From positions 1 through 64,000 of the forward strand of contig QHYE01000003.1 in assembly GCA_003224055.1 (NCBI GenBank): a stretch of 64,000 bases of DNA, read 5' to 3'. Numbering within the stretch: the stretch's first letter is position 1; every line of letters starts with the position of its first letter. The notes under the pieces are model-generated. The model did no database searches. It was given only the letters and a program-made list of their open reading frames with translations, and was not told where the DNA came from. Shown here in pieces: positions 21,856 to 27,415 of this stretch. The stretch comes from Acidobacteriota bacterium. Its GTDB lineage: Bacteria > Acidobacteriota > Terriglobia > Acidiferrales > UBA7541. The position numbers and the translations under genes were made by a program.

Positions 21856-21913
21856 GAGCAGCGAACAGGATAACCTATTCGTGACCGGATGAAAGCGGAC
21901 CAACTTGGTCCGG

Positions 21914-21942
21914 TTGACGGAAGGCTATGGCTGCGGTACACT
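21914..21942 (+). promoter_or_regulatory. Candidate promoter of the iron-uptake operon
   Basis: TTGACG (21914-21919) and TACACT (21937-21942) with a 17-base spacer, close to the sigma70 consensus. The predicted transcription start (about 21949) falls just before the palindrome at 21952-21970. Confidence 0.6.
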
Positions 21943-21951
21943 TAAAACGCT

Positions 21952-21970
21952 GTTGCAAATGATTTACAAC
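21952..21970 (+). promoter_or_regulatory. Fur-like palindromic operator candidate
   Basis: GTTGCAAATGATTTACAAC is a 19-bp inverted repeat with 8 of 9 base pairs around a central G. Its 15-bp core matches the Fur 7-1-7 consensus TGATAATnATTATCA at 10 of 14 positions. It lies just downstream of the predicted start site and 10 bases before the GTG of the FTR1 gene, a position where a bound repressor would block transcription. Assigning it to Fur, or to the fused DtxR-like protein of this operon, is inference. Confidence 0.5.
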
Positions 21971-21980
21971 TGGAGTTCTC

Positions 21981-23243
21981 GTGCTCTCGGCCTTTCTTCT
22001 TGCCCTTCGCGAAGGTGTTGAAGCCTCTCTCGTTGTCGGCATCATCCTAGTCTACCTCTCCCGGACGGGACGCGGGCAGCTGGCGCGCTTTGCCTGGTAC
22101 GGCGTGACGGCGGCTGCGGCTCTCAGCCTTGGAGTTGCGGTAGCCCTGGAACGCTTCCGAATCAGCGAAGACGGATTCGAAGGGCTGCTGCTCCTTGTGG
22201 CTTCCGTGTTCGTGGTTACGATGATCGTATGGATGAACCGCGTTGCGCGACACCTGAAAAAAGAAATTGAGCAAAAAGTCGAGGAGTATGCCGGACGCAC
22301 GGGGAGCGCCGCGGGCTGGGGGATTTTTCTATTCGTGTTCCTGATGGTCTTGCGCGAGGGCGCCGAACTGGCGCTGATCCTGCGTGCGGTGGAACTCTCG
22401 AGCGAGGGGTTGCAAACCTGGATCGGGACGATTGTGGGCATAGGGGCGGCCGTGGCTGTCGGTGTGTTTTTCTTCAAGGGCACTTTGCGTATTCCGCTCC
22501 ATCGGTTTTTTGCTGCGACGAGCGTCATTCTGATGCTGGTGGCATTTCAGCTCGCGCTGACGGGATTGCATGAGCTTAGCGAGGCCCGCTGGCTGCCTTC
22601 GAGCAAGCAAGAAATGGCGCTGATCGGTCCCATCGTGCGCAATGAGCTGTTTTTCTTTGTCCTTATTTTTGGGGCGGCGGCGCTGCTGGTACTGCGGGAG
22701 TGGCAGTCTGAGTCACACGCCAGGGCAGCGAAAGAAGCTGCCGGCGAGGCGGAGAAGAGATTGCTCGAGGCACAGAATCGCCGCCAGCAGCGGTGGATGA
22801 TTGCTGCGGCAAGCGCGTGCCTGGTGGTGATTCTGGTGCTGACCGCGGACTTTATTTATACGCGCGCAAACTCCGCTCCGCCCACTGCACGGGCGGTTGT
22901 GGCGGTGGGCAATGAGGTGCGCATCCCGATCAGTGAAGTGCAGGACGGCACTCTGCACCTGTACACGGTCAACGCCGGGAATCAATCGCTTCGTTTCCTG
23001 ATCATCAAGAAACCGAACGGCTATGGCACGGCTCTGGACGCTTGCCGGATTTGCGGCGCGGAAGGGTATCGCCAGGACGGGCAAAATGTCATTTGCCGGC
23101 ACTGCGGCTCGGCGATCTATGTGCCATCGGTAGGAGATCACGGTGGTTGCAACCCGATCAGTGTTCCGTCGCACGTGGAGGGTAGCGAGCTGACCATCGA
23201 TATTTTGTCATTAACGCAAGCTGCGAAGGAGATTCCTCTGTAG
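21981..23243 (+). CDS. FTR1-family iron permease fused to a DUF2318 domain
   Basis: Inner-membrane iron importer. The FTR1 part (about 1-240, seven predicted membrane helices) has both REXXE iron-binding motifs: REGVE at 10-14 and REGAE at 125-129. A charged linker (about 240-275) leads to one more membrane helix (about 277-295) and a periplasmic DUF2318 domain with Cys pairs C355/C358 and C372/C375 plus C390 (GGCNP). In Campylobacter-type systems the permease and the DUF2318 protein are separate genes; here they are one polypeptide. GTG start with TGGAG five bases before it. First gene of a five-gene operon; iron specificity is from family knowledge. Confidence 0.92.
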   Translation: MLSAFLLALREGVEASLVVGIILVYLSRTGRGQLARFAWYGVTAAAALSLGVAVALERFRISEDGFEGLLLLVASVFVVTMIVWMNRVARHLKKEIEQKVEEYAGRTGSAAGWGIFLFVFLMVLREGAELALILRAVELSSEGLQTWIGTIVGIGAAVAVGVFFFKGTLRIPLHRFFAATSVILMLVAFQLALTGLHELSEARWLPSSKQEMALIGPIVRNELFFFVLIFGAAALLVLREWQSESHARAAKEAAGEAEKRLLEAQNRRQQRWMIAAASACLVVILVLTADFIYTRANSAPPTARAVVAVGNEVRIPISEVQDGTLHLYTVNAGNQSLRFLIIKKPNGYGTALDACRICGAEGYRQDGQNVICRHCGSAIYVPSVGDHGGCNPISVPSHVEGSELTIDILSLTQAAKEIPL

Positions 23244-23289: not shown

Positions 23290-24606
23290 ATGTTCCTGCG
23301 ACTTGTTGCCGATTCCTTTGGACGACGCCCGCGCCACAAGCTTCTCACTGGGGCGGCGCTGGCTCTCGGTATGGGCGTAGCCACGGCGGCGCTGAGTGTA
23401 TCGCTGGATGTGGGGGACCGGCTGGCGAAGGAGTTCCGCAGCTTGGGAGCGAATCTTCTCGTTACGCCGCAGGCCGATTCGCTGCCGCTCGAAATCGGCG
23501 GGGTCGACTATCGCCCTGCGAACGCTGGCGCGTACCTCCCCGAATCCGACCTGCCAAAACTCAAGACCATCTTCTGGCATAACAACATCATGGCTTTCGC
23601 GCCAATCCTTGAAGTTAGAGTCAAATCTTGGACTCCACAGTCTTCCCCTGCTTCCGCTGCCTTCGTGGAACCTGAGGGGAGCGGCGACGCTACTCTGATC
23701 GGCACTTGGTCAAATCACTCGCTAATCTTGCCGAACGGCGAAACCTTTATCACAGGGATTCAACAAGCGAGTCCATGGTGGCATCTTGACGGATCTTGGT
23801 TTCAGGATGGAGAGGGCGAGTGCATTGTGGGCAAAGCCTTCGCAGATAGGAACGCATTGAAGATCGGGAGTCCCCTCTACCTTGCCACACCCTTATCAGA
23901 GGGACTGCTATTGAAGGTCACCGGAATCTTTGCCAGCGGTGGCTCGGAGGACAATGCAGTAGTCACCTCCCTTTCGATAGTGCAGCAATATGTCGGGATA
24001 TCTGCCCAATACAGAAAGCTGTATGTGAGCGCGCTGACGAAGCCGGAAGACGATTTTGCGCGGCGCGATCCGAAGACCATGAAGCCAGATGAGTTCGAAA
24101 GTTGGTCCTGTAGCCCGTACGTCTCGTCCATTGCGTATTCAATCCAGCAGGTTTTGCCAGGGGCCGATGTGCGCGTGATTCGCCGCGTTGCGGAGGGCGA
24201 AGGCCAATTCCTCATGCGCGTCCGGATGCTGCTGTGGCTGGTCACCGGCGCGGCGCTGCTGGCAGCGGCACTGGCTGTTGGCGCGTCGGCGGCCGCGTCT
24301 GTGATTGAGCGGCGCACGGAGATCGGCTTGATGAAAGCGCTTGGCGCAGGCTGCGGCACGGTGGGCTTTCTGCTCGCGGCGGAACAGCTCTTGCTCGCGT
24401 TTGTCGGTGGCGGCATCGGCTATGCGCTCGGAATTATTCTGGCACGCCTGCTCGGGCAGAAGATCTTTGGGGCTGCACCGGAGCCTTCGCTCATTGTTTT
24501 TCTTGTGGTGATCGCGCTCGCTGCCGGTGTCACGCTGCTCGGCAGCGCTTTGCCGTTGCGCCGTGCTTCGCGTTACCAGCCGGCGCCCATCCTGCGTGGC
24601 GAATGA
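23290..24606 (+). CDS. ABC transporter permease, FtsX/MacB-like (first of pair)
   Basis: 438 aa. An N-terminal membrane helix (about 15-38), a large periplasmic MacB-PCD-like domain, and three C-terminal FtsX helices (about 315-425) form the type VII ABC permease fold. This superfamily moves substrates or force across the periplasm rather than through a pore. Neighbours (FTR1, second permease, ATPase) match the order of the Campylobacter Cj1658-Cj1663 iron-uptake locus, so a role in periplasmic iron handling is likely. It lies 46 bases after the FTR1 gene and overlaps the next permease by four bases (ATGA). Confidence 0.87.
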   Translation: MFLRLVADSFGRRPRHKLLTGAALALGMGVATAALSVSLDVGDRLAKEFRSLGANLLVTPQADSLPLEIGGVDYRPANAGAYLPESDLPKLKTIFWHNNIMAFAPILEVRVKSWTPQSSPASAAFVEPEGSGDATLIGTWSNHSLILPNGETFITGIQQASPWWHLDGSWFQDGEGECIVGKAFADRNALKIGSPLYLATPLSEGLLLKVTGIFASGGSEDNAVVTSLSIVQQYVGISAQYRKLYVSALTKPEDDFARRDPKTMKPDEFESWSCSPYVSSIAYSIQQVLPGADVRVIRRVAEGEGQFLMRVRMLLWLVTGAALLAAALAVGASAAASVIERRTEIGLMKALGAGCGTVGFLLAAEQLLLAFVGGGIGYALGIILARLLGQKIFGAAPEPSLIVFLVVIALAAGVTLLGSALPLRRASRYQPAPILRGE

Positions 24607-25805
24607 TGGCTAGCTACCTCACGGCCAATCGAGCCATGTTCTGGCGCATCCTCCGCCGGCTTCTCGGCGCCAACCGCGGCCGCCTGTTCGTCATCCTTCT
24701 AGCACTCGGGGCGGGCGCTGCCGTCACGGCAGCGCTCCTTAATCTACAGGTTGACGCCAAACGCCGCCTGACAACTGAATTCCGCAGTTTCGGAGCAAAC
24801 GTCATCATCGCGCCGGCTGGTACTAGTCACGGTTCAGGCTCGGCGACAATCTCTGAAACTCTGTTGGACCACTTTCCAAACCAAACATCCCTCAGTTCGA
24901 TTCCTAGGGCAACGTTTCTCTATGCCATTGCAGATGTCACAGCTTTCAGTGGCGAAGGAACGGACGGCACCAAGCTCGGGACCGCACTTGTTGTCATTAC
25001 CGGTTACCGTTTTCTGGCCGACGATCTAAAGCAAATAGTCCCCCATCATGTGATCGAAGGCGACAATGTGGTCATTCTTGATTCGGAAACATGTGAAATC
25101 GGGGAAAAAGTCGCTTCGCAATTTCATCTTCACGTCTCAGGCGTATTGAAATTGAAGACTGAGAAAGCTGAGGTAAGTTGCGTGGTTTCGCAGATTAGGA
25201 GTTTTGGAGGTGTTGAAGACAGTCAGATTTTCATGCCAATGAAAACAGTTCAGCGTCTTGCTGGGTTGCCGCAGAGAGTCAGCTTGATTCAGGCAGTCGT
25301 GCCCGGCACCCCAGCTCAGATCGAGGACTATCTAGACGACCTTCGAAATCAATTCCCCGACGCTGAGGTACGCCCAATTCGACAATTCACGGAGGGCGAA
25401 GCGAAAATCTACAACCAGATCAGCGGGTTGTTGACAGCGACGGTGGGGATTGTGCTACTGCTGACCGGGCTTTGCGTGATGGCGGCGATGACGAACGTGG
25501 CGATGGAACGGAAGATGGACGTGGGCTTGATGAAGGCTATGGGCGGTTCGGTGCGTCGCGTGCTGCGGCTATTCCTGACGGAGGTAGCGCTGCTCGGCCT
25601 TGTAGGCGGTCTGATTGGCGCCGCGTTAGGAATTATTCTTTCGATGGGATTGGGGAAAGCCGTTTTTGGCGTGGCGGCGCGTCCCCGGCTGATTGTGTAT
25701 CCTGTAGCTGTGGCGCTGACAATTATGATTGCCATTTTCAGTGCTTTTCCGCTGCGGCGGTTGGCGAGCATTCGGCCCGCTTCCGTGTTTCGAGGTGAAG
25801 CGTGA
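24603..25805 (+). CDS. ABC transporter permease, FtsX/MacB-like (second of pair)
   Basis: 400 aa, same architecture as the preceding permease: N-terminal helix (about 22-42), periplasmic domain, FtsX region with three helices at the C-terminus and the MERKMDVGLMKAMGGS coupling segment that contacts the ATPase. The two are diverged paralogues and probably form a heterodimer. The start overlaps the stop of the first permease (ATGA) and its stop overlaps the GTG of the ATPase gene (GTGA), so all three should be made in fixed ratio. Confidence 0.88.
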   Translation: MMASYLTANRAMFWRILRRLLGANRGRLFVILLALGAGAAVTAALLNLQVDAKRRLTTEFRSFGANVIIAPAGTSHGSGSATISETLLDHFPNQTSLSSIPRATFLYAIADVTAFSGEGTDGTKLGTALVVITGYRFLADDLKQIVPHHVIEGDNVVILDSETCEIGEKVASQFHLHVSGVLKLKTEKAEVSCVVSQIRSFGGVEDSQIFMPMKTVQRLAGLPQRVSLIQAVVPGTPAQIEDYLDDLRNQFPDAEVRPIRQFTEGEAKIYNQISGLLTATVGIVLLLTGLCVMAAMTNVAMERKMDVGLMKAMGGSVRRVLRLFLTEVALLGLVGGLIGAALGIILSMGLGKAVFGVAARPRLIVYPVAVALTIMIAIFSAFPLRRLASIRPASVFRGEA

Positions 25806-27007
25806 GTTCCCTGATTCAGGCGCAGGCTCTCCCCGGGTCGTCCCAGGTGGTCATCGAGAACCTGACCAAGCAGTACGGCACGCTCCGCGCGCTTGGTGGC
25901 GTCAGCTTTGACGTAAACACCGGCGAATGGGTCGCGCTCATGGGCCCTTCGGGCTCCGGGAAAACTACGCTCATCAATATTCTTGGTGGCTTGGACACGC
26001 TGACCTCCGGCCGCGTGGTCGTGGACGGCGTTGACCTCTCCAACCTCAGAGAAAGTGAATTGGTTCGTTACCGCGCAGAGAAAGTTGGTTTCGTTTTCCA
26101 GCAGTTTCACCTCGTGCCGTATCTCACTGCCGTCGAAAATGTCATGCTGGCGCAGTATTTCCACAGCGTCACGGATGAAAAACAGGCCGCGGAAGCGCTC
26201 AAGCGCGTCGGCTTGGGCGACCGCCTAACCCATCTTCCCGCGCAGCTTTCCGGCGGCGAGGGGCAACGCGTGGCCATCGCGCGTGCACTCATCAATCAGC
26301 CGAAGCTGATTCTGGCCGACGAGCCGACCGGCAATCTTGACGAAGCCAACGAAGACGTGGTGCTTCAGATTTTCCGAGAACTGCACAACGCGGGCCACAC
26401 GATCTTAATGGTGACGCACGATCCAGACATTGCGCGTCAGGCGGACCGCCGCATCGAACTGGCCCACGGACATCTGCATTTCGATACGTTGCAGCACGGC
26501 CCGAGCCATCCGCTGAACTGTCCTCTCGCGGACACGGCGGACTGCTGCACTCCCGTTTCGACCGATGACGAAATCCGCTTCGATCACCTGCTCGAACAAA
26601 TTTGGGTTTGCGGCGAGGAAGGGAAGCCGGCGGAAGCCGAACGACTCCATGCCTCGGGGCCGGCCGGGAAACTCCCTGTCGTCACAGAAGAGCCCGCTAC
26701 CCGCGTGCTCTCCCGCATGTCGGATCTGCATTTGGTACAGATGGAAAACGGCGAAGTGCAGCTCACCCCCGTGGGCAGCCAGCGCGCGCGCGACGTTATT
26801 CGCCGCCACCGCCTGGCCGAGCGTCTCTTCAAGGACACGTTTTCCATCGAGGACTCCGAAGCGCACACGCAAGCCTGCAAGTTCGAACACATCATCAGCC
26901 CGGAGCTAGACCAGCGCATCTGCACATTCCTCGGCCATCCGAAGACCTGCCCCCACGGGAATCCCATTCCGCCGGGCGATTGCTGCAACGGCAAGTCCAA
27001 GAGCTGA
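25802..27007 (+). CDS. ABC ATPase fused to a DtxR-like metal-sensing module
   Basis: 401 aa. Residues 1-230 are a LolD/MacB-type ATPase: Walker A GPSGSGKT 48-55, signature LSGGEGQR 149-156, Walker B LILADEPT 169-176, MVTHD. A Cys-rich linker (C240, C248, C249) leads to a C-terminal region (about 255-390) that aligns with the whole of DtxR/MntR repressors: a winged-helix part ending LTPVGSQRARDVIRRH and a dimerisation/metal part. H336, E340, H355, C359, E362 and H363 reproduce DtxR H79, E83, H98, C102, E105, H106 with identical spacing; the Met10 equivalent is not evident. The ATPase energises the two upstream permeases; the fused sensor probably gates it by metal, or lets it act as a repressor. 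GTG start, overlapping the previous gene. Confidence 0.9.
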   Translation: MSSLIQAQALPGSSQVVIENLTKQYGTLRALGGVSFDVNTGEWVALMGPSGSGKTTLINILGGLDTLTSGRVVVDGVDLSNLRESELVRYRAEKVGFVFQQFHLVPYLTAVENVMLAQYFHSVTDEKQAAEALKRVGLGDRLTHLPAQLSGGEGQRVAIARALINQPKLILADEPTGNLDEANEDVVLQIFRELHNAGHTILMVTHDPDIARQADRRIELAHGHLHFDTLQHGPSHPLNCPLADTADCCTPVSTDDEIRFDHLLEQIWVCGEEGKPAEAERLHASGPAGKLPVVTEEPATRVLSRMSDLHLVQMENGEVQLTPVGSQRARDVIRRHRLAERLFKDTFSIEDSEAHTQACKFEHIISPELDQRICTFLGHPKTCPHGNPIPPGDCCNGKSKS

Positions 27008-27022
27008 TTGCGTAAGCCAACA

Positions 27023-27415
27023 ATGCCAACTCCACTGGACCCGCGCAAAAAACCGAGCAGCATCAAAGTGCACGTCTCGAGCGGCGCCGGTGTGGATATC
27101 ACCTGGGCCGACGGGCACTCCAGCCACTACGAGTTCACGTATTTGCGCGAAGAATGCCCCTGCGCGACATGCAACGACCTACGCGAAAAGAAGCAGTCTC
27201 TTGACGCGACCGCGCCAACTCTCACGTCATCACCTGCCCTACCGATGTTCAAGCCGAAGCCCAGGGCCAAAGCCGCCACACAGGTGGGCAATTACGCGAT
27301 TCAACTTAGCTTCTCCGACGGCCATTCCACCGGCATTTATAGCTACGACCATCTCCGCAATATTTGCCCTTGCGCAGAATGCGCCAAAGCTTTCCGCACG
27401 GCGTTCGCTGGCTAA
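27023..27415 (+). CDS. DUF971 (GBBH-like) domain protein
   Basis: 130 aa with the DUF971 pattern in two halves: ITWADGHSSHYEFTYLREECPC-type and LSFSDGHSTGIYSYDHLR then CPCAEC. The fold is known from gamma-butyrobetaine hydroxylase N-terminal zinc domains and from proteins linked to Fe-S metabolism (for example next to ApbC/Mrp). It carries four Cys in two CPCAxC motifs, suited to binding a metal. Last gene of the iron operon, 15 bases after the ATPase-DtxR gene. ATG at 27023 is preferred over a TTG at 27008; neither has a strong ribosome binding site. Confidence 0.8.
   Translation: MPTPLDPRKKPSSIKVHVSSGAGVDITWADGHSSHYEFTYLREECPCATCNDLREKKQSLDATAPTLTSSPALPMFKPKPRAKAATQVGNYAIQLSFSDGHSTGIYSYDHLRNICPCAECAKAFRTAFAG

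Follow-up and report, generated by a model that had tools for sequence, protein, structure and literature searches.

The canonical Fur box of Escherichia coli, GATAATGATAATCATTATC, is a 7-1-7 inverted repeat, and the operators of IdeR and DtxR follow the consensus TTAGGTTAGSCTAACCTAA. A different box is bound by a FUR-family protein in the actinobacterium Streptomyces coelicolor, where the nickel-responsive Nur box tTGCaa-N5-ttGCAA controls sodF and sodN, according to the available part of the source (PMC3919588). The closest described operon is the iron uptake operon CJJ81176_1649-1656 of Campylobacter jejuni, for which the accessible portion of PMC6083913 gives FTR1, p19, ABC and thioredoxin genes under a promoter that carries a Fur box. 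For IscR, the type-1 site is ATASYYGACTRWWWYAGTCRRSTAT with the core GACTRWWWYAGTC in the excerpt that deals with it (PMC6599224).

The acidobacterial operon studied here resembles that of C. jejuni, as the same portion of the source presents it, in its FTR1 permease, its two ABC permeases, its ATPase and a Fur-type site at the promoter. Unlike the C. jejuni operon described there, it contains no p19 or thioredoxin gene, its FtrD-like domain is fused to FTR1 and its ATPase to a DtxR-like domain, its operator has a different sequence and an IscR-like site is added. The proposed operator itself is of a known kind. It shares with the canonical Fur box the 7-1-7 inverted repeat, the family-invariant T-7, G-6 and A-3 with their partners, and a location at iron-uptake promoters, but positions -5 and -4 mostly carry C and A where the canonical box has A and T, and strongly conserved outer AGT/ACT bases extend it to the 21-bp AGTTG-N11-CAACT. 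The copy in the window agrees with the 19-bp E. coli Fur box at 8 of 19 bases.

On the basis of sequence comparison, we consider it very probable that this palindrome is the operator of the FUR-family repressor of the host genome, accompanied in most of the host genus by a probable IscR site at the -35 element. Among the open-access papers listed by our searches, we recognised none that describes the Fur motif, the 21-bp consensus or the IscR-like pairing for Acidobacteriota. The motif and its small predicted regulon offer a testable case in these abundant soil bacteria, and the drift of a FUR-type operator from TGATAAT to TTGCAAAT half-sites in an unchanged frame bears on the divergence of Fur, Nur and Mur operators.

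A palindrome at the start of the FTR1 operon

The window, by which we mean the whole stretch of 64,000 nucleotides that was analysed, contains the following features at this locus.

21896..21912, no strand assigned: second palindrome CGGACCAACTTGGTCCG, abutting the -35 hexamer, IscR type-1-like
21914..21919, + strand: -35 hexamer TTGACG, from the promoter scan and retained in relatives
21937..21942, + strand: -10 hexamer TACACT after a 17-bp spacer, from the promoter scan and retained in relatives
21951..21971, no strand assigned: putative Fur-type operator, the 21-bp palindrome TGTTGCAAATGATTTACAACT, which is the 19-mer plus one base on each side
21981..23243, + strand: FTR1 iron permease fused to an FtrD-like Fe-S domain, GTG start
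23290..24606, + strand: MacB/FtsX-like ABC permease A
24603..25805, + strand: MacB/FtsX-like ABC permease B
25802..27007, + strand: ABC ATPase fused to a DtxR/IdeR-like domain, with Fe_dep_repr_C at residues 322-390
27008..27415, + strand: GBBH-like_N (PF06155) protein, the final gene of the conserved block

The first gene is identified as FTR1 by Pfam (E 4.4e-40), and its transcription would start at about 21949-21950. The promoter scan of the window returned 2 promoter-like matches against 2.0 expected and is therefore uninformative by itself. A reading made earlier from the sequence alone (the sequence-only reading) had placed a 19-bp palindrome with eight of nine complementary pairs between a TTGACG-17-TACACT promoter and the FTR1 start. 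We confirmed by reading that the 19-mer GTTGCAAATGATTTACAAC occupies 21952-21970 with 8/9 pairs complementary, between the promoter at 21914-21942 and the GTG at 21981, and it is the sole such 19-mer in the window at up to 3 mismatches. The agreement at 10 of 14 bases with the Fur 7-1-7 core TGATAATNATTATCA, given in the same reading, is also correct, though 14 fifteen-mers of the window match that core equally well or better. Likewise, the window holds 13 palindromes of the 9-1-9 type with at least 8/9 pairs, where five Markov-1 simulations yield 10.4 on average. Because symmetry and core match are both near chance in the window, we dropped them as stand-alone evidence and rest the case on comparison: the significance of the putative operator derives from its conservation and its genome-wide rarity.

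Conservation of the palindrome at orthologous promoters

Orthologues of FTR1 are present in 78 of the 89 genomes of the host's acidobacterial family and in 12 of its 13 genera; their upstream DNA, minus that of G013, which is cut at the gene start, gave a set of 77 promoters. The sequence-only reading had staked its proposal on the motif recurring in close relatives, and there it was found: AGTTG-N11-CAACT occurs exactly in 59 of the 77 promoters, in 75 if one mismatch is allowed and in 76 if two are, for which a Markov null gives 0.0000, 0.0058 and 0.0805 per promoter, respectively. The poor fits are G047 and G051. Across the 76 sites with up to two mismatches, T-7, G-6, A-3, C+6, A+7 and A+8 are invariant and T+3 is kept in 73. 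These invariant bases coincide with positions of the Fur 7-1-7 repeat, save A+8 just outside it, and G080 retains the canonical half TGATAAT. The genus-weighted information per column is 1.41 bits in the operator, compared with 0.18 across the promoter spacer and 0.17 further upstream.

The distance from the -10 hexamer to the operator is 7-10 nt in 73 of 74 scored promoters, within a spread limited by the search for the -10 at 4-14 nt before the site. The operator lies 28 to 170 nt from the start codon, depending on the promoter. The constant spacing to the -10, beside a variable one to the start codon, ties the element to the start of transcription and not to translation. This bears on the possibility that the palindrome acts as a hairpin at the 5' end of the mRNA, influencing stability or translation. 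The palindrome does sit at the inferred 5' terminus of the mRNA and, in the window copy, immediately precedes the ribosome-binding site. However, the hairpin is missing from the minimum-energy fold of the leader (z -0.55), paired positions that vary are complementary no more often than expected within genera (p 0.80-1.00, 76 sites), copies exist upstream of -35 elements and the start-codon distance is not kept. We regard a role as an RNA hairpin as extremely improbable.

Occurrence in genomes and predicted target genes

A search of the 4.53-Mb host genome with TTGNAAATNATTTNCAA returned two exact matches, one at the FTR1 operon and the other at C100:9118. The second precedes a PepSY_TM gene, followed by a 607-aa protein with no Pfam or NCBIfam match and by an FMN_bind/ApbE fusion (L049:4956-9118). 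The sequence-only reading had suggested scanning the full genome for the motif near other iron genes; the scan did yield one further exact site, but the PepSY_TM/ApbE set behind it includes no textbook iron gene. The gene set resembles a flavin-based reductase set. When mismatches were allowed, the host genome contained 14 places compared with 2 for the reversed control; the 12 places at two mismatches lie mostly inside long ORFs, show no iron theme and were set aside.

In the 89 family genomes, TTGYAANTNANTTRCAA matched 50 sites compared with 1 for the reversed control. Reading of the contexts, in part by eye from protein resemblance, assigned 43 of the 50: 17 sites lie at FTR1, 15 at a barrel/cytochrome unit, 7 at a TonB receptor that directly adjoins fur and 4 at other TonB receptors (the other seven are L096, L097, L103, L106, L107, L110 and L111). 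In the barrel/cytochrome unit (L083:2631-4024 and its equivalents in L082-L095, L109 and L326) the operator precedes two genes, one for a predicted 12-stranded outer-membrane barrel with no Pfam match and one for a c-type cytochrome. The structure models of this barrel and of the DtxR-like domain considered below are weak (mean pLDDT 59.4 and 55.0, respectively), so that the fold matches, to FapF/COG4313-type outer-membrane channels for the modelled barrel and to IdeR/DtxR for the domain, are only hints. It is possible that the unit forms a system for iron or for electron transfer. Between fur and the TonB receptor, operator pairs or triplets flank a TTGACA promoter (L098:4001-4094, L102:4001-4088, and L112 with site 1869 and downstream copies), and this presence on both sides of a promoter suits a DNA operator.

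A stricter 19-mer was run against 299 genomes of the class, 50 from the family and 249 others. It matched 8 genomes, 3 of the 50 and 5 of the 249, and the control matched none; with so few matches, the reach of the motif beyond the family is thinly tested. Among the five matches outside the family, two precede FTR1 homologues and three lie beside fur, these last being located upstream of a TonB receptor, in the gap from fur to such a receptor, or in front of a barrel/cytochrome unit.

The FUR-family protein as the probable regulator

In the host genome, a single protein passes the Pfam cut-off for the FUR family, the product of an rseP-linked fur gene (G000:C64). A further match, C132, was rejected as a second FUR protein as it falls below the family cut-off; its ORF presumably encodes a BlaI-like protein. 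FUR-family proteins are encoded in 82 of the 89 family genomes. FTR1 occurs together with no FUR match in G026, G055, G062, G074 and G086, all of which are incomplete assemblies (71-94%). In G042, G045, G046 and G088, genes for Fur orthologues with 65-69% identity adjoin the sites and a TonB receptor. Near the host fur gene itself, no site was found within two mismatches. That sites recur next to fur is the strongest indication that Fur is their regulator, and the suggestion of the sequence-only reading that a genomic Fur could bind the palindrome draws strong support from the comparison, in both the conservation and the fur-adjacent sites. By sequence comparison, the candidate operator is conserved, keeps its spacing to the -10, recurs next to fur and at genes for outer-membrane and iron functions, and is independent of the DtxR domain.

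We infer Fur binding, its metal and repression as its sign, and propose that metal-loaded Fur, most likely with Fe2+, would occupy the 21-bp site over the start point of the operon for FTR1-FtrD and the MacB-like ABC transporter. At high iron, Fur on its operator would block RNA polymerase; a fall in iron would release Fur and allow the operon to be transcribed.

The regulator could instead be a FUR-family protein that senses manganese, nickel or zinc, with an operator of the Mur, Nur or Zur type. The best PDB relative of the host Fur, the ferric-uptake-regulation entry 5fd6, is what we take to be a Mn-responsive Rhizobium protein. Furthermore, the half-site and spacing of the copies in the host genus are identical to those of the Nur box tTGCaa-N5-ttGCAA, as that box is given in the available part of PMC3919588. 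In contrast to the Nur box, the sites show no nickel or SOD theme, the assigned contexts being FTR1, TonB-receptor and channel/cytochrome genes (43/50). The presence of the FTR1 permease operon and TonB receptors among the targets argues against another metal, as do the NCBIfam Fur models, which outscore the PerR and Zur models, with all scores below the cut-offs. A sensor of one of these other metals is therefore unlikely in our judgement.

A separate MntR/DtxR-like regulator or yet another regulator would also have to be considered, for a stand-alone DtxR-family gene is present in the host genome (G000:C22) and in most of the family. Among the contexts inspected, however, no site adjoined the stand-alone gene; fur, by contrast, has seven sites of the family and three from outside it as neighbours. 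We find binding by such a regulator very unlikely.

The DtxR-like domain fused to the ATPase

The sequence-only reading had offered a second candidate, the DtxR-like domain encoded in the operon, which would bind the palindrome and confer autoregulation. The domain is real, of the DtxR type for metal binding and dimerisation, with a Fe_dep_repr_C match at E 4.5e-28 in the ATPase fusion, and its DtxR-type metal ligands are kept: H336, E340, C359, E362 and H363 are invariant in 29 fusions. A fold search with the low-confidence model of the domain returned IdeR and DtxR, and the predicted resemblance included a wing. Against binding by this domain, the winged-helix stretch is its least conserved part in the 29 fusions, variable and in many of them shortened. 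The fusion is found in some genera and the same operon has no such domain in others. In five genomes from four genera (G043, G058, G059, G066 and G084) the site is kept and the domain absent, the ATPase ORFs being 222-277 aa long and matching only fusion residues 13/16-225. In G042 the motif lies beside fur where no FTR1 operon was found, and the site agrees with the IdeR/DtxR consensus TTAGGTTAGSCTAACCTAA, compared by eye, at about 6 of 19 bases. The proposal of autoregulation by the fused domain is thus disfavoured, since five operons that have no domain keep the site and the winged helix is poorly conserved, and we give it hardly any credence. Our guess is that the domain is a metal sensor, perhaps gating the ATPase, and an iron-gated transporter is a possible reading of the ATPase-DtxR fusion.

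A second palindrome at the -35 element

The palindrome at 21896-21912 went unmentioned in the sequence-only reading. It resembles the IscR type-1 site, as given in the excerpt of PMC6599224, in its GACY-N5-RGTC core, which is also found before iscR in the host genus. It differs from that site in its flanks and in that the host copy GACCAACTTGGTC departs from the core GACTRWWWYAGTC at the T/A next to it; GACTGAATTAGTC of several relatives fits the core exactly.

The pattern GGACTNNNNTAGTCYGAW occurs in the family at 12 places in 11 genomes, mostly at channel/cytochrome promoters, compared with 2 places for the reversed control. As it is too strict for the IscR-like site at FTR1, that site was counted on the promoters instead: GGACY-N5-RGTC lies near the FTR1 promoter in 22 of 32 promoters of the host genus, in all three of genus g6 and in none of the 41 from the other ten genera. 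The barrel/cytochrome promoters of the host genus carry both palindromes.

The host genome has a single Rrf2 gene, with GACTGATTCAGTC before it and an iscS-like ORF after it. For the 30 iscR loci given in the host genus, 27 starts were located, and GACY-N5-RGTC is upstream of all 27; the stricter form GACT-N5-AGTC was found by script in 15 of those loci. Scored with NCBIfam models, the host Rrf2 protein reaches 80 for the IscR equivalog (cut-off 207.55) and 113.9 for the SUF regulator (cut-off 110.65). IscR is accordingly a working name here, as the protein passes the cut-off for the SUF regulator but not that for the IscR equivalog.

By its sequence, the second palindrome is probably made for IscR, and we infer that in most of the host genus the site at the -35 would be bound by this protein. 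IscR at the -35 could then provide iron-sulfur status as a second input to the operon. Together, the IscR-like site paired with the operator and the DtxR-like domain of the ATPase suggest that a single importer is under iron control at several levels. Taken furthest, three iron sensors would act on a single import operon, with Fur sensing ferrous iron at the start point, IscR sensing iron-sulfur status at the -35 and the DtxR-type domain, shifted from gene control to the transporter, gating the ABC ATPase on iron binding, a combination that we put forward tentatively and hold to be possible but rather doubtful.

Relatives of the FTR1 locus

Nearly all named relatives that the FTR1 protein retrieved are acidobacterial MAGs of soil and peat origin, and labels among them include several of gp2, Candidatus Acidiferrum or Acidoferrales. 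One record titled Betaproteobacteria (L288, CAJCHZ010000007.1) encodes an FTR1 that is 80% identical, and its upstream DNA looks the same as that of the acidobacterial G032; it may have been mislabelled or misbinned. A further, more distant homologue of FTR1 (43%) carries AATTGCCACTGAGTTGCAACT at L287:5283-5303 with a further GTTGCAAC repeat before it, and these repeats suggest a related operator.
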